Positions 1 to 62,592 of a DNA stretch of 64,000 bases are shown piece by piece (position 1 is the first letter of the stretch; each line of letters opens with the position of its first letter). This stretch comes from Lampris incognitus (lineage: Eukaryota > Chordata > Actinopteri > Lampriformes > Lampridae): contig NC_079216.1 in assembly GCF_029633865.1 (NCBI RefSeq), positions 62,006,915-62,070,914 on the forward strand. Direction: 5' to 3'. A program made the translations under genes and the position numbers. Below the pieces are notes generated by a model. That model made no database searches. It was not told the DNA's origin and saw only the letters and a program-made list of their open reading frames with translations.

Positions 1-2659
1 TAGCGAAGCCTCGCAGTGGAATTAGCTCATTAATGTAATGGTAACAAGATGGAATCAGCCTCCCTGGGGAGAGATATGGCAGGAACATCTCCGCAGCTGC
101 CTCCTTTTTGTAAATCACTCTGCTTATCTGGGAGGAGGAGGAGGTGATCAATACGGCAGCATTACTGTAAACAGATAATGTAGCGTGCTCTGGGGCTCGC
201 GTCTGTCCAGCGGCCCATTACGCCACACAGCCATCCAGATGACGGATAGTGATAAGTAGACGGCCAGGCTGCATCCTTGTGTTGCGTCTTGTCACCAGCT
301 CTCCTCCCCCGACTACACTGACCTGACCCGGCTCCAATGCGAGCGAAGAATTTCACCTCTTTTCCACATTTTGCATCTCTCGACACGATGGAATAAGGGG
401 ACAGGTGTTTTGGCATATTTTAAGAAATTTTCTAAACCTCGATTGGGTGACAGATTTGACAATAATACACCGTTCATTAGCTTGTATTCAAACCTAGAGG
501 ATACTGCAGGCGGTCACTGTAATAATCACTTATATTAAATACAGCAAGACCAAACGGTTAATGTCTTGGTGCAATTGACACTGTGGCACACACGGAGTTT
601 ATGAGGTCAGGCTGGATGTCTCCAAGGGGCTGGATTCATGTTCCTGACAGGGGCAACATTTCTCAGCCTCGCTTTCAGGGATCCAGCGGCAACGACATCA
701 TCCGATAAAATGACCTAAAAGTGAGACTCAGAAGTGAAGGGTCCGCCCTCCCTCCGGAGAATCATCTGAACCAACACAGCAGGTACTAGAGGCAGCAGTC
801 TCTAAAAAAATCACCTTTATGCATATGCAAAACCCTGTAGAGGAACGTGTTTAAACATGGCGAAGTGTAAGTAAAGGAAGCAGCATCACTTCAAGACCAT
901 TCCTTTATCGTTACTCACGGCCCACGCCGCTGTTCAACCGGATAAGCACATGGACGAAAGACATCTCAGATTTCCACCTCCTCTTCCCGTAGCATGTCAA
1001 GAGTATATCTCAAAAGGTGGGGAGTCACTGTGTTTTGTTTGAAATACGGCGGCGCTACACACACAGACACACACACACACACACACATACATGTGACAAG
1101 GAAAAAAATACCCATCATCTAAGTTAATAACCTTGCTCACAATTCAGAAGGCTGCTCGAAATTCCCTCGAATTACAGCGATTGAGGAGCGGAGGGTTTAA
1201 AAAAAAAATCAATATACATGTGATGCCCTGTAAAAGCCTTATAAATATAAGTAGCATTTGTCCATTAGCGGAGGTTCAGGGAACAGCAAATGCTAATGAA
1301 TGGCGGAGCAAGGCCATTCTGGTCCATTAGAGAAGTCCCACTAGTGAGTACGGTGGCCTCTTGGAGGTTATCTACTGGCAAGCAGTGCAAACGCTAGACC
1401 CACAACTCAAAATACTCTGCACTCTAAATGATGGATTGGACAGATGTGCTTTTTGTGTTTCGGGAGGGAAAAAGAATGAACTCAAATTGATTACCAAAAT
1501 GGAAATGCTCTCCATTTCCAAGAGGGCCTACGTTGTTATTCATTAATACATTTTGAGAGTATTTATTGAGAGGAGGCCGTTATAAACAGAAATAAAGTAG
1601 GTTACTTGAGATTAGCTCACTCACTTTATACAACTGCGAAAACATCACAAATAGTAAATAAAGCGGCGCTGTCAGTGAGGTCAGTGAGAGGATAGAGTCG
1701 AAGCCAAAGTCACCGGAGGACCAGAGAACAGCACGCAAGACTCGGCAGCCTACAGAGGTCCATTTTTAATCTCTTTGCCAAGTAAAATATGTCTTCTTGT
1801 TAAATTAACATATCCATATATGCAGAAATAAAGTCAAATAATTAGTTATATTTGCTGTTTGTAAAACTTGAGTTGAACTTAACGCCTGCTGTGTAGCTGT
1901 GCGCTGAAAAACCTGGGAAAAAAAATTGTGACGTTGCACTACAAACTACTGGGACCTTAAACAACTATTTACATTCACTCTGTGTCCCAAGACAATATAA
2001 TTATGAGGATACTCCGACTAAGACACGAGTTCTGTGAATGCTTTGAACAAATTCTGTCATTTGTAGTCGTCGTACAGCAATTAAAACACACAATAATGCA
2101 GCATGTGGAGTGGGATTGTGTTTTAATGTGTAATCTTACATCTTGGCTCGTGAATATTGCACGACCCGTCCGATTAAAACTTGTGGCAGGTGAGTTAGGG
2201 TTGCCAACGGTGTATCTTCTAATCCCATTTATTTCAGACATTCGAAACAAAAACGGAAAATGTATTCATCTATACAAAACATACAGTGACGATGAACCCT
2301 GTTTAATGGTTCAAGTCATCAGTTATAAGCTCATCGTGAGGCTCAACAATGGCTGGCTAATGGTGTGACTGACCACGCCGTCTTGAATCACCACCCCCAG
2401 CGGGTCGGAAAATTAAAACGCAGAGAAACAATAATGAGCTAAAGGCACCTCCGAGCTTTCTAGCATGTAGTGGAAATTTAATCGAATCATCATCGTGAAC
2501 GTAGGGGCATAATCACCGACTCGTTCTGTTTAATGACAACATACCAGCAAGTTGTGGTCACCCGAGCATCGTACTCCTATCCCCCAAAATGCACTGTAGT
2601 TTTCAGATACAGTTATGTAAATGATATGTAAATATCTTTGCAAAAGGGAGGGTACTCAC
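1..2659. other. scaper intron 23 (partial), non-coding and nearly repeat-free
   Basis: No convincing coding exon was found. A short (CA)n run sits at 1054-1087. The rest is unique, moderately AT-rich sequence with many TAAT cores (for example near 27-40, 1262-1300 and 1542) and an octamer-like ATGCATATGCAAA near 820. The absence of transposons in 2.6 kb contrasts with the right half of the window. This is candidate regulatory DNA. Confidence 0.5.
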
Positions 2660-2775
2660 TTGACTGGGATGCGAGGAACCGTGGTGGGCGTGGAGGCGGC
2701 AGTGATGACCTGAAGAATCTGTTCCAAAGCATATAGCCCCCCTCCCACTTGGAAGGCCACCTGATCCGCATTGTT
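2660..2775 (-). CDS. scaper: scaper exon 23, last exon inside the window
   Basis: Encodes [20 protein letters not shown] then [19 protein letters not shown], the start of the helical C-terminal region; human has a DQIAFQAAGGLTALEHILQAV-like stretch here. Acceptor CTGAACAG, donor GTGAGT in phase 2. No later scaper exon was recognised between 1 and 2659, so the next exon lies beyond the left edge. Confidence 0.9.
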
Positions 2776-5700
2776 CTGTTCAGATAAGGGCCGAGAGAAA
2801 GGCAGAGACAGCGAGACAGAGGAGAGAAAAACAGAGGTAGAGCCACCGTCAGGGGCAGACGAGGCACAGGCTGGACTGGGGATTACATTGCTCTTACTGG
2901 GGGGGGGGCTTTTCCTTTTTCTCTAAAGGGGTGAAGGAGTGAAATGTGAAACAAAGTGATCCCTGAAGTATTCCTGTTAAATCTCAAAAGTGCACAACCC
3001 TGCTTTGCCCCCCCCCCCCAACCACGCAACCACCCCCAAGCAGTCAACTTTCAGGGGAAGGACAACTGCTCTGCAGGCTTCGGCCAGCACTGGGGTGGTC
3101 TCTGCAGGCAAACATGGATTTTGAGATAGAGAGAGAGAGAGAGAGAGATAGCGATAGAGAGCGAGAGCGCGAGATGGAGAGAGAGCGAGAAAGGCCAAAG
3201 GGAAACCCAGATAATAGGGAAATCAGAAAGTACCTCCAAATCGAGCACATTAATCTAATAAGAGACAGGGAAGATGCTCTTCATTTTCCTTTGAAAACAA
3301 GTTCAAGTGAACTTCACAGAGGAAGGAATAAAAAAAAATCAAAAAAAAAAAAATCTAGTCTACAGTTTAAGATTTATGAACAAACCTCTTAATAGTTAGG
3401 TGACGTCCTGCCCTCTCACAAGGATCAGAAAGAAAGAAACTGCAGTAATTGGCAGTGGGTCAGAGCCTGTTGCTACGCAGTCGTATAAATCAACAACTAC
3501 AAAGCCAGGAGCAAGTGCTGTTATCAGGCATGTTTGCGCCTGGGTCGACGGGGGATGTAGAGGAGGTGTGTGTGCGTGTGTGTGTGTGTGAATGTGTGTT
3601 GAGGAGGGGCACCGCTGATGGAAGGCTTTCTTCACACACAGTTGTGGAGAGCGTGGACTGTATTTCAACGCAGGTTATTCCTCCGCCCGGGGTTGGAGAC
3701 TTGCTTGCCGGTGTGACGGCATTCAAATCCCGCCACTTCACGGCGCTTTTGTTCCTATAGATGGGAAGTTGCAAACAAGCCCGAACACATGTAGAGAAGC
3801 AGTTTTGCTAAATTACAGATAAGCTCTTCATCTGTCAGTCGTCGTTGTGCTCCTCAAAATCCTGTGACAACAAGGAAAGAAAAGAAAAAAACAGAACTAA
3901 ACAGAGCCAAACAACTGGCTTGTTAAGGGACAGAAGCTTTGAATGAGCTCACACAGAATGGGTACGAAGTCCAATGAGGATTACGAGGGAATTCAGAGAC
4001 GGTCTCCACAGTCCAAGTTCTGTTTGAAAAAAGACTATCGTGACATCCTCTCTGTACACCGCCAGCCGTTTCCAAGCCTAATCAATTAGGTCACAGCCGT
4101 TGAAGCGGGCTTAACCCTTCTCTTAACCCTCCCATCAACACACCTTGCTAAAAGCTTCTACATTAAATGAGAAAAGGCAGCTCTTTCATGGTAGCTTATC
4201 AAATGGTATTAAAGGAGGTAACCGGGACCTGCCCAGCCCTGGCGGTCGCTTGTGAAAAGCCAGCCAAGAGCTCCTTGGCTAGTCGGCGCCTTTCCTGCCG
4301 TGCTGACAGATTTATCTGTTGTGATGACGGAACAATAAGGCTGAGGAGAATTCAATCCTCGAGACGCAAAACTAGCTCAAAACTACCTGTAGACTGTCTA
4401 TGGTCCAACACCTGTAATGGGTCACAGAGAACTACAGGAAACAGACCGAGACACTGCCGTGAAGACGCACACTTCCTCGAAAAGAAACAACCGATGATAA
4501 GGGCTCGTCTCGCCTCAGAAAACGGCTCTACGGTGGGTAAATGTTTATCATTGGCTTGTGCAAAGCAGACGACTTTCTCAGCAAATGGAAACCAACATCT
4601 GGTCATGCTACAACTTTTTATTAAACCTCGCTACAGAGGGGCGACAGAAATCATGTCTGTATGTAATTACTTTGACAGTGACTATACACACTTAGCTGAA
4701 TTTGTATACACACTTGAACGGGATGAAAACAGCCGTTGTCTATGAGAGCGGCGGGGATTCACAGTACATTTCTGAGAAATGGAGTGGTTACAGTCGATCC
4801 CTCTCCCGGTGTTCTTTAGGGCTGCGTATGACCGGCCTGGGTCGGATCACACCCGGATAGATGCTCTGACAAAAACAGCAACGAGATGAGCGGGCTCATT
4901 TCCTTTCGAAAAGAAACACGACATACGTAACAAAAGAGCCCACCAAAGGACTGAGAGGTGAAAGGTCGACGATGACTGAATCTTATCTAATGATTACCCC
5001 GGGTGAGTATTATTACCACTGTCAAATCAGAGGGGCTAAGCAGCTGCTAATTCCTGTGGCTGTGGCAGAGGCGACGGTAGGGTTAAACAGACTGCCCTAT
5101 GTGACTATGTGACACCCCCCCCGCCCCTCCCACCAGCCACTCTGATCAGCCGACATTAAAGCAGAAGAGGAGGGGCCCCAGTCAGTCGCTACACCCTGGA
5201 AACAGATGGACAACCACTGACAAAGTTCATTAAGGATGGGCCCTCGGCCTTCATCTGCAACATCACCTTCAGCCTTTCACCGGCATAGGCCGATCTGACC
5301 GAGAGCGAGTCTCGGCACACAGATTACTCTTTCTACATGTATTCCGGCGTTACGCGGCCTTATAGGAAAGCCTGCGTAGGTTAAACAATATTCGGCGGGC
5401 CGGGCGCACTGTAGACCACAACACAAGCGCTGGAATAAACATTTCAAGGAGGAGTACAAACGTGCGTGTTTACAGGACATAATGGAATATTATTTAGAAT
5501 ACTTCACGATTACCGAGAGAACGTGGAACTAAGCGACACTGCAAATTGTGTTTATTCCATAAAATGAAATAAGATTAATCAAGGGCCCAATGTGGTGCAA
5601 AATCAAGCCAACCACAGAAACCACAGACAGCCCGTAGTTGTTACTATAACACCAAGGAGCCCAAAAACGTTTCGGTCCCTACTGCTCTCGCGGCGAGGAA

Positions 5701-26100: not shown

Positions 26101-29100
26101 ATCAACTGAAACAAACATGTCAACATTAAACATTATCTTAGTGATATTTTAGAATACAATTTAATCATTGCACTGTTTGCATTGGCTGGAAAAGTATGAA
26201 AATAAAAGATTTCTGATCACATAATAAATAAAAATAAATGTGCCCCTTTTTTCCCCCGTCTCCACACAAAACATCTTTATTGTGGATATCCCTCAACCCA
26301 CCCGGTTGTGGGTCCTGACCCCAGTTTGAAAACCACTGGTTTAAGCATTTCTTATCATCTCCGCCAGGCGGTAGCATGGACGGGATTAAGCGTTTGGTCG
26401 CGTGTGCACACATATGTGTGTCCGCGGCTAATCTCACAAACTACTGGACCTGTCAGCCTAATTTTTTTTTGCGTGCACCATTATCACTGTATGATGAAGA
26501 ACCTCTCCTGGTTGGGGTGATCGAAAAACGCTTGTTCTCGCTATCGCCACTCCCTCTCCTCAGTCACTCTCTAGCTGGCTCGACCAACACTGCTTTCTTT
26601 TGCTGCCCTGAGCCAACCGTGTGCCTGCGCAACTCACATCTACGGTTGAATCAGATCGGGCAGCTACAGAAAGCGGCCTTGGTCATGGGGTTTGTGATGC
26701 TCTAAAAAATTATTCACCGTTTTACAGCTGCACCTTTTCTGATGATTTTGTGTGGGGAAAAATGCTCAACTGTGAGTGCAGCACATGGACAGTCTAGTTG
26801 TAGTCAATCTTCAAAACTTTTGCTAGAAATGTGGACCCGTGTATCTGAAAAAAGTAAGATTTGATTGAAATATTGTGAATGCTTTCTACGCTGTCACTCA
26901 AGAGACGAGCAGAGCAGTGGACTGTAGCAAACGTGACAGGCGGACCAACACATACTGCAGCACAACCAACACTGAGGTGAAGAAAATAACTACTACTACT
27001 ACTACTACTTTCGGCTGCTCCCGTTAGGGGGCGCCACAGCGGATCATCCTTTTCCCATCTCTTCCTGCCCTCTGCATCTTCCTCTGTCACACCAGCCACC
27101 TGCATGTCCTCCCTCACCACATCCATAAACCTCCTCTTTGGCCTTCCTCTTTTCCTCTTCCCTGGCAGCTCCATATTCAGCATCCTTCTCCCAATATACC
27201 CAGCATCTCTCCTCCACACATGTCCAAACCATCTCAATCTTGTCTCTCCTGCTTTGTCTCCAAACCGTCCAACCTGAGCCGTCTCTCTAATATACTCGTT
27301 CCTAATCCTGTCCTTCTTCATCACTCCCAGTGAAAATCTTAGCATCTTCAACTCTGCCACCTCCAGCTCCACCTCCTGTCTTTTCATCAGTGCCACTGTC
27401 TCCAAACCACATAACATAGCTGGTCTCACAACCATCTTGTAAACCTTCCCTTTAACTCTTGCTGGTACCCCTCTGTCGCAAATCACTCCTGACACTCTTC
27501 TCCACCCACTCCACCCTGCCTGCACTCTCTTCTTCACCTCTCTCCTGCACTCCCCGTTACTTTGGACAGTTGACCCCAAGTATTTAAACTCATACGCCTT
27601 CGTCACCTCTACTCCTTGCATCCTCACCATTCCACTGTCCTCCCTCTCATTCACACATAGGTATTCCGTCTTGCGCCTAATAATAATAATAATAAACTTC
27701 ATTTGTATAGCACCTTTCATACATAAAATGCAGCTCAAGGTGCTTTACATTAAAAACAAGGGAAACAATAAAACTCAACAACAATATAGATAAAATAAGT
27801 TAAAAGTAATAAAACACAGACCTAGACAAAAACCATAAAACAAGGCAAGAAATAAAACCACAGTACCAGATAAAAAATAAGAGTAAAAGAAATAAAATGG
27901 AATTAATTAAAAGCAAGAGCATAAAAATGGGTCTTGAGCTGATTCTTAAAAATATCTATGGACGTTGCTTCTCTTATTTGTAGGGGGGAGTCCTACTGAC
28001 TTTCATTCCTCTTCTCTCCCGTGCATACCTCCACCTCTCCAGGCTCTCTCAACCTGCTCCCTACAGATCACAATGTCATCCACAAACACCAGAGTCAACG
28101 CAGACTCCTGCCTGATCTCGTCCGTCAACATGTCCATCACCACTGCAAACAAGAAAGGGCTCAGAGCCGATCCTTGATGTAATCCCACCTCCACCTTGAA
28201 CCCATCCGTCATTCCAGCCGCACACCTCACCACTGTCACACTTCCCTCATACATATCCTATAATAACCCTCTACAAAATATTGGTAATAAAAAATGAATA
28301 AAATAATTGTATGGATTTAAAATTTTTGTTTTCCGTTTAAAAAAAAAAACCTCTGTCATTCCGCTTAAAAGATATGAACAGCAGTCAGTCCTATCTCAGA
28401 ACGGCACCCATAGCAATACGGTCTGTTGAATTTCATGATTGAACAATCAGAATCGAATTGTAGTAAACTACAAAAAAAGAACCAATTTTAAATTCATGGA
28501 CAGTTACTGACTGCGGCATAGAACTTGTGGTTGAGTGAGTGATTCATGCAGCCCGAGCCAGACTTGCAGCTCAGGGAAGGGAGCGGGCTCCGGGATGGAA
28601 GAGCGAGTAGTGAGTGTGAGTAGTGAGTGAGTGAGTGAGTGAGTGAGTGAGTGAGTGAGCGAGCGAGTGAGTGAGTGAGTGAGTGAGTGAGTGAGTGAGT
28701 GAGTGAGTGAGTGAGTGAGTGAGTGAGCGAGCGAGCGAGCGATTTGTGCAGCCCGAGACCTTCAGCTTCGGGCTGGGAGAGCGAGAACCGAGTTGAAAGT
28801 GGTTTCAAAGTGGTTGCCTTTCTCACAGGGCTAGGTTAATACAGCAATTAACTTGACAAATTTCCACAAATACAGTTAATATAAGAGTTGCACAATCTTG
28901 ACACGTTGTCTCCGCACTAGCTAGCGGGAGGGGCGAGTGAACGAGTTAATGGAGACGAGTTGTCACTCCCATCTCAATACAAAAGAGTAGTTCGTTTCGA
29001 ACGATTCGTTCATGACTCGCACGTAACGCGACAGTGTCACAACCAAAACATATTCGGATATGAGTCTTGAAATTACACGAGAGGTCGATCGTATTTCGCA

Positions 29101-48631: not shown

Positions 48632-51600
48632 ATGACTTTACAATTCAAAGATGCCTTTTGGGTGAGTTACTGTGGTGTTACTAATTTATTTGCATCCTCT
48701 GATGTTTGTGTTCGTCACGATAGCTGAGGCTGCCACAACCTTTGAAAGAACGATTTGCACAGACTACGGTGAACACAGTGTTGCTTGGACGTTTTCATTC
48801 AAAAGCAACATTTTTTTCCCAATACCCTCTCTCCATCATTGTCAGTGATACTGTATATATTTTGTAGAAACGGTATTTCCCGGCTCACAATTCGCCAACT
48901 GACTTTTTAACCTACTGGTTTTGGTGTGCGTTTTCAAAGCTTTGCCACGTTTCCTTTCAACTTCCTTGCGGTGTCCACTGGGTTGGAACTGTTGTTGCTA
49001 TGGTAGAGGCCGTCAGGGTGTTACATATCAAATTGTCTCAAGTACAAATGTTTCATTTTTGGGTCGTGGATGAATGAGTCTCCATTTAGATCCGGAGCTT
49101 TAACAATTGACACATCTATGTCTTCATAAGGCATTGGTGTAACGTGCACACTGAGAGGTTGAGTGAAGTGGTTTTGCAATATACTTCCCCTCTGTTCTCG
49201 ATTTCCTGTGTAAGGCTATTCTCACCTCTGTTTGAGCTTTTGATCTTTTTCCTTGCCTCGTAAGAAATCTAATCTACAAATCTCCCGACAGCTTCTGGGT
49301 TGATTTGCATGGGAGGGTCCAAACAATAACCCCCTTCAAACCTTTGCAAATGAACCCGCAGTATGTTTGTGTTATTACTTCGACACTTTACCCTGTATGC
49401 AGTGGTATCAATTAAAAATTCCAGCCCAAGTAATTTCTTGTTCCATTTATATGTTTGATCAAAATTTAAAATGCCACTCAAAGCCGCCTCACACTTTGGT
49501 CACTTGAGTTTCCAGCAGTCATTTTCCTTGTGTGCAGTTACAGAGGTTGCCTCGTTGAGAAAGGCCAAACCACCTACTTGCTGTTGTTTCAGTCAAGGCA
49601 GAGTTGCTTGTCAAAGATTCCTTCCAAACTGACACATCCACACTATAAATAAGTCATTTACCTATGAGGGGTGCTGGCATAAAAATACAACTTGCCATGG
49701 ATGTTACTGATATTATTAACTATGGTTTGATCATTGTCTACAAACTACATTGAGAAGATACTACTACCATGTGGAATACACAAAAGTTAACTTTTTTCCC
49801 CCCTCACATTGGGCACGCATGTTAGATACAGATCATACGCATAATCTAGACTCCTGTGCAACTGGATTAAGAACATTTCAGTTTAGTGACCCGCTCAAGG
49901 TTATCTTAGCAAGATGAATTGCTCCCGCCGAGAGTGAACCTGAGAACTTGGGATGGTCTCCTTAAAGGCAAGGCTACACTGCCACATGTGTAACGGTGTC
50001 ACTGTAACTCAAGACAAACAGTCAGGATGTACGCTTGATTTTTTTCACGTACATTTTAATGATGTAAATTCCAGCTCAAACTCGCAGTGTAAATGTAGCA
50101 TTATGATGGAGCACATGGTCAGTTGGTAAAGGCATGCTACTTTTGGGTTCTAGGGGCTGGATTTTATCAGCAACATAGGGTATGAGACCATAGTCCAAAG
50201 ACTCAGTGATGGCCGACGGACCTGCAAGGACATGGAAGAACTCTTGAAAATGAGGTTGGTGTCCATTAATCAGTACACAAAGATAACCCTCCGTCAATGT
50301 GGTTCAGCTGCATAAATTGTCTTCTATGCAGGGCATCAGCAGAGGAAAAATATGGCAAGGAACTGGTCACAATTGCACGCAAGGCGGGTGGTCTCTATGA
50401 GATCAGGTGAGAGTTACATCTGTGTGCATTTGAGCATGAAGCCTGTGTCACACACGCACACAGGAACTTGTGCAGTTTTGATTGCGTCTTTAAATTGCAT
50501 GGACCGTGATTCAAAGTTTCACCGTGACGGTGCAATAAAATGTTTTTTGACTGCATTCGGTGACCGATAAAATCATTTGTCATTATATTGAATATAGGGT
50601 ATTCATTAGTTGTTATAGGAGGGCTATTTAAAGCATCCATAGCATGGTTTTAAGCTAGATGCTTATAAATAATGTGTTAGGAGGAAGAGGGTTCAGAGTG
50701 CATTTATTTAATTTTATCCAATATTCCCTGTAAAATGTATTGATCTATAAACGATCTATAACCACAACCAGTTAGCCAAATACGGTAACATTTGTTTATT
50801 TCCCCTATTTTCCAGCACTCTGACTGGCTATTGTGTGCAGCCAACCATAAAGCGGAATCACATTTCCAGCAATGCGTTGCAGCCAAGTGGCAAATAGGTT
50901 GCAAGCAATTTCCCAGAGTGACACACAAAGTAATTCAGGAGCAATTTAAGTGCACACATTGTGTGCTGAAGGGTCACTGTGTTGCACAGGTTTAAGTATG
51001 TAGTCTCTGTGTCTGAGCAGGCCTCAAGTGTGGGATTATTCAATTGGGATTACTCAAGAATGCGTGTGCCGTTCTTCAGTCTCCCCTCTAAACGTTGTTC
51101 ATGTTGTTTTTGCAGCACTTTAAGAGCGTCCTTTGAGGGAGTGAGAACACGTATGTATGAATAATATTTCAGCCTTATTTTTCTCCTCGTGTATTGGTAA
51201 AGCTCAGCTTGTTCTTGGTGTGTTTCACTGTTTAGCCTTTTCGCAGGTGTTTCATGCATATCTTCAGGCCATATTTAAGACATCTGTACGAGCGAAAGTC
51301 TGTGTTGTTGTTTAGAGATGGAGAACATTGGGAACCTGCATGTCCAGCTCTCTGGGCTGCTGAAAGAGGAGCTGAAGAGGATGGAGCTGTTTAGAGAGCG
51401 GCAGAAGGAACAGAGGAAAAGGGTGCGAGCACAAGGTTTCCTTTATTTCAACCAGTGGCAAGTGGCAGAAATTTTAACTTTATCAAGTGAAATGTTTTTC
51501 AGGAGGGTTTTAATAATCCCACATGTTCTTTTTCAACCAGATTAATACTTACTGTATTAATCCGGTTTATTATTAATTGCACTTATTGTAAGTCGCTTTG

Positions 51601-54600
51601 GATAAAAGCGTCGGCTAAATGGCTGTAATGTAACGTATAATAACGAGATTTGGGACACAGTGCGAGGTTGGATAAACGTGTCGTAGACTTCAACATGCTT
51701 TTCTTTTTTCTTTTCTTTTTTCAGTGTGAAGTACTCATGGAGAAGGTGCAGAAGACAAAAGTCACTCTGTATAAGAAGACAGTAGAGGTGTGTAGCCCGC
51801 AGTCTGCCTTATTTGAACGGCACAAATGGTCCTCAGCATTCAACCACAGTGTTTTATCCTTCCTGTTGGTAGCAAGAACATGTTTATTATTATCACTCAT
51901 ATATTTTCGTAATGTGTGTGTGTGTGTGCTGTTAGTGTGTGTGTGTTAGTTAGCGTAGATAGCGGGACCAAAAACTAAAACACTTATGATCCTAATTCTT
52001 TTTGGAGGTGGTAGGTATTGTCCCAGAGAGTACGGGGAAAATCCCAGAAAATTAAAATTATGCATAATTATGCATAAATACGCAAAATATGCATTTTTCT
52101 AAAAATGGCTAAAAACCACTTTTCTCGGCATTTCAGAGGATTCTGAGCATTTGGGGGGAGGGAGTTGGAGTGGGGGGGGGGGTTTAGGGGCAGGGGGAAG
52201 GCGGTTAGCTGGCAGGATGAAGAAGAGGCAGATTTAGACTTGTGGATAACCAAACCGCTACATTGTAGCGGGGTTCTTCTAGTGTTCTTATATTTTCACT
52301 TTCATATAACCTTTACCCTCTGCTAGTCAATGGGACAAAGTCATAGTGGTAGCATTGAGGCGACACGATGGGCTACAATGGCGTACGACACTGGTGCGCC
52401 TCGGCGTGTATTCCACCGAAACCTTACCCCTTGCTGCTGAGGATGTGTACGAGGAAGAGGCTTCTGCAAGTTTTTAACAGACAGCCAAGCGTGACCGGGG
52501 CAAAAAGCATTACTTTGTCACCTCAGCTCGGTTTACCATAGTTGCGTCCATGTTTTACTTTTAATTGTGCCACTGTTATACAGGTGTCTCAGCAGAGCTG
52601 AGGTCACTAAGCCTGGTCCTAACTGCCAAATCGGTCTTTGTTAAAACAAGTTGGGGTTTTTGTTGTATTTTTAGAATGGACTTTACGCCAGTCGTGCACC
52701 AACTAAGCCTAGTAGTCGTAACTACATCCGGTCTTGGCGACGCGCGTCCATGCGAACGCGTGCGTTGCTAGGATACCTTCCATTTACGTCAGCTTCCTTC
52801 GATCGACTTTTTGCGATTGCTAAGATACATTTATTTTAACGATCTGCTAATTTGTAGCTCACCATTTCTAATTTGTGGCAACTTTATAGAGGATTGTAGA
52901 ACCTGATAATGTAATAAATTCCCAATAATGTAATAACCCCGATAATGTAATAAAAAAATCTGCTCTTGAGTCCATTGAAAACGCAATAAAACCTGATAAT
53001 GTAATAACTTCCTGATAATGTAATAAAGTGCATGTCCCAATAATGTAATAAACTTTTTACCAATAATGTAATAATGTGTTACATTAACGGGACGTTATTA
53101 GGGTTTAGGGTTAGGGTTAGGGTTTAGGGTTAGCTATGATATATAGTTTATTACATTATCGGGAAATGCACTTTATTACATTATCGGGAAGTTATTACAT
53201 TATCAGGTTTTATTGCGTTTTCAATGGCCTCAAGTGCATTTTTTTACTATATTATCGGGGATGTATTACATTATCAGGTTCTACAAGGATTAAAAAAGTA
53301 AATTTAACGGACATTGAAAAGAAAATTAATGGAGCTGCACAGCCAGGACAAGGAAACGCTGACTGACGAGCTGTCCGACCTAATAACAAATAGGAATTAA
53401 GGGAGGCCATAAATGATTGTTTGTGTAAACTACTAATAAGACACGTTAGCCCCTAGCTAACGGGTCTGACCCTTTAGCTGAGCGGTTAGCCATGTCGCCT
53501 TGTGGTGCAGTACACCCCCGTATCGAATCCCGCACCGGGCAACAAAATAACCGGTTACAGTGGTTTACACAGACGTTGTGTTTGTTTTCTCACATGCTAC
53601 GTGTCGTTTCTCTTCCAGTCCAGACGCGTCTATGAGCAGCGTTGCAGGGAGGCGGATGAGGCAGAGCAGTCTGCAGAAAAGCTGAGCAGCACCGCCACAG
53701 CCACACCCAAACAGACCGAGAAGGTGATCACAACACAACACCTGTACCCCACCGGCCTGCTTCCTCAACCCTGTGCCACGTTTCAAAGCCATGCCCGTGC
53801 TCCGGATTTAACGAGGAAGACATTCAAAATTTACATAATGTGTGCTGATTTAAACAATGTCACTGAAAAGGTTACGGAGAGAAATGTACTGCCTTTAATG
53901 CTTTTCACACAATCGTAGGAATAGAGGTGGTGGCGTGCCTTCTTAGTAATGTCTTTTCTTTCCCCTTTTTTTTTTTAGTTGCAAAACAAATCTAAACAGT
54001 GCAGAGAGGCTGCAGTAGAAGCCGGTAAGAGGAAGTGAGCTGGTGTGTTTTGCTATTTTTTTGTTTGTTTGTTCTTGCACTGCAAAGGACATATCTGGGC
54101 TTGCCTGCACTTCTGATGGACTGAAACATAAAAGAGTTACAAAGGAGAGGAAAAAAAACACTGCCGCAGTATTGCTGCTGTTTTCACCTTAGCAAATGCT
54201 GAGGTTTACCAGAAATTGTCATTGGTGGTCATTTTCACTTCCTGTTTTAGTAAAAATAGCTGAAACCAAATTTATCTATACAGGCATGGTTGCTGAAGAT
54301 CATAAAGACACAGTTTGGGTCACATGTAAAGGGTACAATGAACCTTTAATCCATAACATAGCGTGTGAGACATCTATGCTTGTGGATTTAAGTTAAAAGT
54401 AATATTTAATTCCTCTGCAGAAAAGCAGTATTCGTTGAACGTTGAGCAGCTCGACAAGATTCGTCAAGAATGGGAATCCACACATGAGAGCACATGCGAG
54501 GTAAAGTGAGACACTATAAACTGCCCGGAGAGTTGAATCACTTCATCTGGACGCAACATTTATTGGGAGAAACATCTTGCTGCACGCTCAATAATCCAGG

Positions 54601-62045: not shown

Positions 62046-62592
62046 GACTCAACAGTCAAGCCCTACCAGTAGCTGCTCGCATCCAGTTTGAGACTCTGGT
62101 GCTAGCCTACAGGGCAGTGAAAGGAACAGCTCCTTCCTATCTCCAGGCCATGGTCAAGCCCTACACCCCCGCCCGACCACTTCGCTCTGCTGCCTCGGGA
62201 CGCCTGGTTGCCCCGTCGCTCAGAGGCCCTTACTGCCGATCGACCCGGTCCCGGCTCTTTTCTGTCCTGGCCCCGCAGTGGTGGAATGAACTCCCCACTG
62301 ATGTCAGGACAGCGGGGTTGCTGCCCATCTTTCGGCGCAGGTTGAAAACTCACCTCTTCAACAACTACTACCCTGTTACTTGTTCTTAGCACTTATTGTA
62401 TTCACTCATTAAAAAAACAAAAACCTCTTTCTTGCACTTTTACTTTAGCACTGGTTTTGCTCTTAGATGCTTGTTTAGATGCACTTATGACCTCTGATGA
62501 CTAGTAGTTCTCCTGATTTCCTACGTTAAATTAACGTATTGTAAGTCGCTTTGGATAAAAGCGTCGGCTAAATGACTGTAATGTAACGTAAT
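62046..62592 (+). mobile_element. L2-type LINE fragment, copy B with 3' tail
   Basis: Encodes ARIQFETLVLAYRAVKGTAP then SYLQAMVKPYTPARPLRSAA and PQWWNELPTDVRTA, ending HLFNNYYPVTCS. The 3' UTR ends TAAATGACTGTAATGTAACG, the usual L2 tail. It repeats about 90 bases already present in copy A (from 'GCTGCTCGCATC'). Confidence 0.85.

Follow-up and report, generated by a model that had tools for sequence, protein, structure and literature searches.

The window, that is, the whole 64,000-nucleotide stretch of Lampris incognitus DNA analyzed here, contains a complete 391-bp non-autonomous foldback-type DNA transposon at positions 52895–53285 on the + strand. We assign a probability of roughly 0.92 to the reading that this element is a miniature transposon of a Ginger-like family, generated from an integrase- and OTU-encoding parent of approximately 5 kb by loss of its middle. 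The analysis confirms an ordinary mode of origin, that of a non-autonomous transposon, which is combined with two unusual traits: foldback arms of the integrase type and a mobile telomere-like microsatellite, most likely acquired once.

Architecture of the 391-bp element

The element and its flanks comprise the following features.

52890..52894, no strand: left 5-bp target site duplication AGGAT, identical to 53286-53290
52895..53097, + strand: left arm, corresponding to the parent's transposase-proximal end (198/203 positions shared with one end of the long copy L041)
52905..53074, + strand: seven direct 16-bp CCYRATAATGTAATAA units, presumed integrase-binding sites, from the unit scan
53098..53129, + strand: telomere-like TTAGGG/TTTAGGG array with five full units, having the same borders in 15 array copies
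53130..53145, + strand: junction, TTAGC followed by the AT-rich filler TATGATATATA; TTAGC also occurs in the parent (GGTTAGCC)
53146..53285, - strand: right arm, the parent's other end, truncated and with one unit lost, from the signature AAATGCACTTGAGGCC and the L041 comparison
53148..53275, - strand: five inverted CCYRATAATGTAATAA units, two of them decayed, from the unit scan
53286..53290, no strand: right 5-bp target site duplication AGGAT, identical to 52890-52894

The termini read TGTAGAACC at the left and GGTTCTACA at the right, the first bases of the element being TGTAGAACCTGATAATG and the last bases the inverse, CATTATCAGGTTCTACA. The original prediction had placed the feature at 52890..53292; the feature itself stands, while its true limits are 52895-53285 with the AGGAT duplications as flanks. 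The inverted arms described there are borne out by two complementary pairs, one of 109 nt at 91% and an outer one of 56 nt at 80%. As single-stranded DNA, the frame 52892-53282, which lies 3 bases off the true element limits, has a folding energy of −122 kcal/mol versus −30 ± 4 kcal/mol for 100 shuffles (z = −22.8).

Both arms are built of repeated units. A scan for GATAATGTAATAA with up to 2 mismatches located seven units on the + strand (from 52905, 52924, 52941, 52995, 53014, 53039, and 53062) and five on the - strand (at 53148, 53173, 53192, 53244, and 53263), in agreement with the predicted numbers of about seven in one sense and five in the other. With up to 1 mismatch, ATAATGTAATAA occurs at 12 places in the window, 11 of which fall within the element, against an expectation of 0.29. 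The conserved unit spans 16 bp, CCYRATAATGTAATAA (740 TGTAATA sites in 52 elements), and is thus longer than the 13-base subunit initially proposed; the left arm exceeds the right by two units rather than by one.

The two arms correspond to different ends of the parent. When compared with L041, the left arm agrees with the transposase-proximal end at 198/203 positions, against 182/203 for the other end. By a small margin, the right arm is closer to end 1, the other end (137/162), than to end 2 (135/166), and it carries AAATGCACTTGAGGCC, the signature of end 1, while TCTGCTCTTGAGTCC is found in the left arm. Since the arms match different parental ends, the window element is best read as an internal-deletion derivative of the approximately 5-kb parent, and an inverted duplication, one of the origins suggested earlier, is not supported.

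A dispersed family with 5-bp target site duplications

The assembly containing the window (1.48 Gb, 537 contigs) was searched for related copies. A DNA search with the window element yielded at least 39 further places with 81–96% identity over most of its length among the best 40 of 385 candidates scored, the window element itself included. Exact matches to CCTGATAATGTAATAA were found at 869 + 914 places, compared with 4 + 0 for the reversed control, and the terminal TAGAACCTGATAATGTAATAA, with up to 1 mismatch, occurred at 395 + 404 = 799 places, compared with 0 for the reversed pattern. For closer inspection, 66 sequences were assembled: the window, 40 loci taken from the first terminus places of contigs C1–C6, long ones being chosen on purpose, and a further 5 and 20 loci chosen for TTAGGG-type matches. 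Both termini are present in 52 of the 66, the other 14 being without two clear termini.

Perfect 5-bp target duplications flank 38 of the 52 two-ended copies (3 would match at 4 bp and 1 at 6 bp) and are missing from 14, while shuffling the partners as a control produced 1.17 on average and at most 5. The 38 duplicated sites have a purine at the first base in 35 cases and at the second in 36, with G as the third base in 22; the 25 orientable sites read approximately RGSYY and are GC-rich. In the unoriented duplications, left-end purines (35/38) outnumber right-end pyrimidines (24/38), an asymmetry that random orientation should not give.

The window element thus has the properties of a MITE: it is 391 bp long and non-coding, has inverted ends whose termini recur by the hundreds genome-wide, is flanked in its family by target duplications of constant length (38/52 perfect at 5 bp versus a chance mean of 1.17), and shares its ends with transposase-coding elements (as judged from Pfam matches in L039 and L041 and from the listed frames of L040). 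Among the origins listed in the original prediction, the foldback DNA element was the right one in view of the 799 shared termini and the 5-bp target duplications. The check it had proposed, a search for numerous copies sharing their ends and for target duplications, found both.

Coding parents of the family

Three long copies have the same ends as the window element, namely L039 (8085 bp), L040 (4989 bp), and L041 (5054 bp), and are flanked by the perfect 5-bp duplications GGGAG, AGGCA, and AGGTG, respectively. A Pfam scan of L039 and L041, with L040 judged from its listed frames, revealed the retroviral-type integrase domain rve (E = 6.8e-9 in L041 and 8.1e-11 in L039). An OTU domain is present in L041 (E = 8.6e-8), in another family copy, L107 (8.6e-7), and in the relative L105 (9.9e-6), while in L039 it scores E = 0.0049, below the curated cut-off; a search by sequence returned no solved structure for this domain. 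The integrase frame of L039 is similar in sequence to solved chains of foamy-virus integrase (best E = 1.6e-15), and the catalytic residues by position are D136, D199, and E234, corresponding to DD34E. Because the two long copies scanned encode an rve integrase, one of them with OTU above the cut-off, the family is regarded as Ginger-like. It combines the features of the Ginger superfamily in the broad sense: rve, TGTAG ends, and, as far as noticed, no reverse transcriptase belonging to the family itself. A reverse transcriptase open frame (RVT_1, E = 9.1e-34) does lie inside L039 at about 1006-4078, and it is interpreted as the insertion of a non-LTR element, since nothing comparable caught the eye in the open reading frame lists of L040 and L041. 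A fragment of the same kind of non-LTR reverse transcriptase can be discerned by eye at 26794-27744 on the - strand of the window.

A genome protein search with the L039 integrase found at least 13 distinct copies at 87–100% identity and many relatives at 39–62% (100 match rows); these counts are lower bounds, as scoring covered 98 of 17,669 candidates. Stops, frameshifts, or a small deletion break the frames of all five family copies that were read (L039, L040, L041, L104, and L107), and the second catalytic D is also missing from L107. The 50% identical relative L105 contains an 838-residue open frame (399-2915) with integrase and OTU, followed by a conserved C-terminal stretch that appears F-box-like by eye and has no Pfam support. 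The interruption of all five family copies read speaks against the proposed reading, in which the active parent is putative and mobilization of the miniature form in trans by the parental integrase would be presumed. On contigs C18 and C30, 18 near-identical integrase fragments are clustered (query residues 9-260, 55–56% identity, 2 TAA each), suggesting that a relative of this transposase was carried along in a segmental or tandem amplification.

Repeat units in related families

Arms of a similar design accompany more distant integrases. The sibling element L108, whose integrase pieces are 58–62% identical to those of the family, has terminal inverted repeats (TIRs) of about 280 bp at 83% identity, with 10 units on the + strand and 11 on the - strand; no target duplication was seen at its ends. 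The L105 family, with an integrase 50% identical to that of the window family, has 576-bp TIRs at 96% identity built of related CATTATGTAATAA/CGCCGCATTATGTAATAA-type units. The retention of the ATGTAATAA core across transposases that are 50–62% identical suggests a recognition site, and, given this conservation of the unit in related families, the CCYRATAATGTAATAA arm units are probably integrase-binding sites. In L042, L043, and L044, the number of exact TAATGTAATAA matches on one strand reaches 19, 24, and 21, respectively; a single arm is enlarged to about 19–24 units, as in growing foldback arms. Drosophila FB and Galileo elements likewise vary in unit number and have arms of repeated, presumptive transposase-binding units, with other transposases.

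Comparison with known superfamilies

The family was compared with the published descriptions in the portions of the cited sources that were available. Ginger1 is described there as having TGTNR ends, 4-bp CCGG/CCGT duplications, an H2C2 finger, a GPY/F motif, and OTU or Ulp1 (Bao et al. 2010, PMC2836005). The window family resembles it in the TGTNR termini, the integrase as transposase, an OTU on the C-terminal side (after the integrase in L041, L107, and L105), GC-rich targets, and a size within about 2.6-7 kb, but differs in its 5-bp RGSYY-like duplication, as opposed to 4-bp CCGG/CCGT, and in having neither an H2C2 match nor, by eye, a GPY/F motif, as far as that portion of PMC2836005 describes Ginger1. 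Specifically, Pfam Integrase_H2C2 gave no match at E ≤ 5 in L105, where weak matches may escape the HMMER filters, and none at E ≤ 0.1 in L039 or L041; L107 lacks the H2C2 region and is therefore uninformative for the finger. Inspection of the integrase alignment by eye found no GPY/F motif.

For Ginger2, the same portion of PMC2836005 gives TGTNR ends, H2C2, no GPY/F, and 4-bp duplications at AT-rich RTATAY targets, with TDD-4/5 making 5 bp; the TIRs of Ginger2/Tdd elements reach about 300 bp, and Ginger2-1N1_NV is 252 bp long. The window family shares with this group the TGTNR termini, the lack of GPY/F, and, with TDD-4/TDD-5, the 5-bp length (PMC2836005). It departs from the group in its GC-rich targets, in having no H2C2 match, and in its OTU, a domain not given for Ginger2 in that part of the source (PMC2836005). 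IS3EU elements have TA..TA ends and usually 6-bp duplications, and GingerRoot elements have mostly TA..TA and occasionally TG..CA ends (PMC10045372, in part). An integrase-like transposase without an HHCC finger is common to these and the window family, which is distinguished by TG..CA ends and 5 bp versus mostly TA..TA and 6 bp (PMC10045372, in part). Galileo, whose inverted arms are long and repetitive inside, belongs to the P superfamily, and Tetris is likewise a foldback element (PMC3573991, PMC4079207, both in part); the likeness to Galileo lies in the long, internally repetitive inverted arms and the difference in the integrase found here, as opposed to a P superfamily affiliation (PMC3573991, in part). 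Judged by these descriptions, the family appears to work like Ginger elements and, on the features tested, to fall outside both Ginger1 and Ginger2 in the strict sense.

Ginger and IS3EU elements have already been counted in teleosts, according to the available part of PMC4746887. A foldback Ginger element bearing TTAGGG was not encountered in the titles and abstract beginnings searched, subscription papers, Repbase, and Dfam lying outside this search. In the literature text searched, the literal unit sequences were matched in three papers, titled on Edwardsiella and Plasmodium.

The telomere-like core and its distribution

The array at 53098-53129 consists of five complete units and a partial TTAG, one full unit fewer than the six TTAGGG/TTTAGGG units first reported. 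It is found neither in every copy nor only here, the two outcomes that had been contemplated: among the 37 two-ended copies of the 40-locus set (3 mismatches allowed at the ends), 14 contain an array of at least 2 units. When arrays were sought by their units alone, the same borders enclosed 15 of 15, namely those of the 14 copies and that of the window. Since they all lie between the same borders, the array in the window was inherited rather than formed by telomeric repair at this site, as had been suggested. Across the 66 sequences, 37 contain an array detected by units alone, each with the same borders; in three of them (L067, L099, and L102) variant units interrupt the array, and many of the 37 had been retrieved by way of the left border. 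With a gap of up to 30 bp, a search for the exact borders identified 33 copies with about 2–5 units, none with a single unit, and a loose array pattern identified 85 places genome-wide, versus 5 for the reversed control. The array is absent from all 46 copies with the parental right flank. Together with the common borders, this absence points to a single origin of the array as the most likely case, in a lineage with the shared junction TTAGCTATGATATATAG, followed by multiplication through transposition. An explanation as a telomere or telomere-repair scar was rejected because the flanks are not specific to individual breaks (15/15 unit-only arrays, 33 exact-border places).

Adjoining the array, the AT-rich filler is non-parental: the query AGCTATGATATATAGTTT, with up to 4 mismatches, is absent from L040 and L041 and occurs once in L039, within its reverse-transcriptase region. 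A set of 39 copies was picked by a border-containing pattern, so that the claim of shared borders rests on the unit-only searches. In this set the array length ranges from 6 to 71 bp. The 39 copies diverge from their majority sequence by a median of 2.6%, and the window copy by 2.1%; the burst of array copies looks recent. Array length shows no correlation with divergence (Spearman −0.05, p = 0.77, with L092 included). After L092, which is 46% divergent and poorly aligned, had been dropped, a tree of 38 array copies and 3 outgroups was star-like, with 23 of the 38 inner branches open; the single-unit copies L079, L080, and L081 are scattered in it and for this reason do not prove the ancestral state.

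Origin of the array and competing explanations

At the position of the array the parent reads GACGTTATTA-CATTATCA-GGTTAGCC, with the two array borders, GACGTTATTA and GGTTAGC, 7–8 bp apart and separated by CATTATCA or a close variant in 46/46 copies. Because both borders pre-exist in the parent, a deletion of 7–8 bp followed by slippage can give the array, and local deletion plus slippage would be its simplest source. A different beginning, in which telomerase or the copying of a telomere at a break in one founding copy supplied the core before transposition spread it, is possible but rather doubtful. Such a capture would suit the commonest arrays, which are perfect telomere sequence, start after TTA, and adjoin the non-parental filler, and it would agree with the lack of single-unit copies among the 33 exact-border matches; the shared borders would fit a single repair event as well. 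The parental borders nevertheless argue against it, as the short deletion yields TTAGGTTAG or TTAGGGTTAG without an outside source, and so do the three single-unit copies, although these are scattered in the poorly resolved tree. Telomeric repair or an inverted duplication at the window locus itself can practically be dismissed: an inverted structure around TTAGGG, taken alone, resembles a healed break, yet identically bordered copies of it are scattered through the genome with new target duplications.

It is also very improbable that an unrelated foldback or satellite array, moved by another superfamily such as P/Galileo or Mutator, has come to have similar ends by coincidence. The tandem-unit arms are like those of Drosophila FB/Galileo (compare PMC3573991, in part), but those coding copies that share the ends encode an integrase and not P/Galileo or Mutator transposases, and the target duplication is 5 bp. 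A broader reading, which we consider improbable though less so, would make the core more than a passenger: the foldback lineage would make and disperse interstitial TTAGGG seeds, presented in the loop of a long hairpin, on which telomere-binding proteins or telomerase could act, with effects on the element's spread or on chromosome breakage, and its coding parents could be a lineage separate from Ginger1, Ginger2, and IS3EU in view of DD34E, OTU, 5-bp GC-rich targets, and no H2C2 finger found.

Chromosomal position and genomic setting

Within 10 Mb of a contig end lie 60 of 83 array copies and 29 of 44 parental-core copies, against a fraction of 0.30 expected by length; 2 of 85 places on small contigs and 2 of 46 neighbors in a tandem trio were left out, and some places are close neighbors and hence not independent. 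The two classes do not differ (Fisher p = 0.54), which means that the distal bias does not stem from TTAGGG, and telomere-directed insertion by this motif was rejected accordingly. The last 3 Mb of the contigs show no enrichment (6/83 array and 1/44 parental-core copies). Of 13 coding family copies, only 1 is within 10 Mb of a contig end. Non-coding copies are enriched 3–10 Mb from the ends and coding copies are mostly interior; the distal bias concerns mainly non-coding copies. For related integrase families, with C28–C30 and second pieces of the same copies excluded, the count is 10/58, or 18/66 with every C18 cluster row; the idea that these families shun contig ends was dropped, as neither value is clearly different from expectation.

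Just downstream of the element, an exon-like frame at about 53622-53723 on the + strand weakly matches PSTPIP1 F-BAR structures (E = 0.0022, 34 residues), and the element probably lies within a pstpip1 intron. Frames on the - strand between about 19.6 and 31.7 kb resemble scaper by eye; for one of them, a Pfam search gave no informative family match. UnaL2 LINE 3' stem-loops (Rfam RF00436) occur on the + strand at 51575-51628 and 62528-62581. To the right of the element, a tRNA-like stretch at about 53460-53545 is possibly, by eye, a SINE head; ARAGORN found no tRNA there.

Proposed mechanism and implications

In the mechanism that we propose, the Ginger-like parent of about 5 kb would be a cut-and-paste transposon with long, internally repetitive terminal repeats, encoding the integrase (DD34E by position) and then OTU. 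By losing its middle it would have been reduced to an arm from either end with a short junction between them, and this junction would have acquired the TTAGGG array, most likely once. Having kept both termini and many 16-bp units, the miniature form could be bound, excised, and inserted by the parent's integrase, with insertion occurring at GC-rich, RGSYY-like sites through 5-bp staggered cuts. The array would be a passenger, with a length that changes as in a microsatellite.

Where short telomeric repeats occur at interstitial positions, they are often taken for scars of chromosome fusion or of telomerase-mediated break repair. The present findings indicate that about 80 interstitial TTAGGG tracts in one genome most likely stem from a single event within a transposon and were spread by transposition. 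They also show that foldback arms composed of repeated, presumptive transposase-binding units can occur in a Ginger-like family driven by an integrase.
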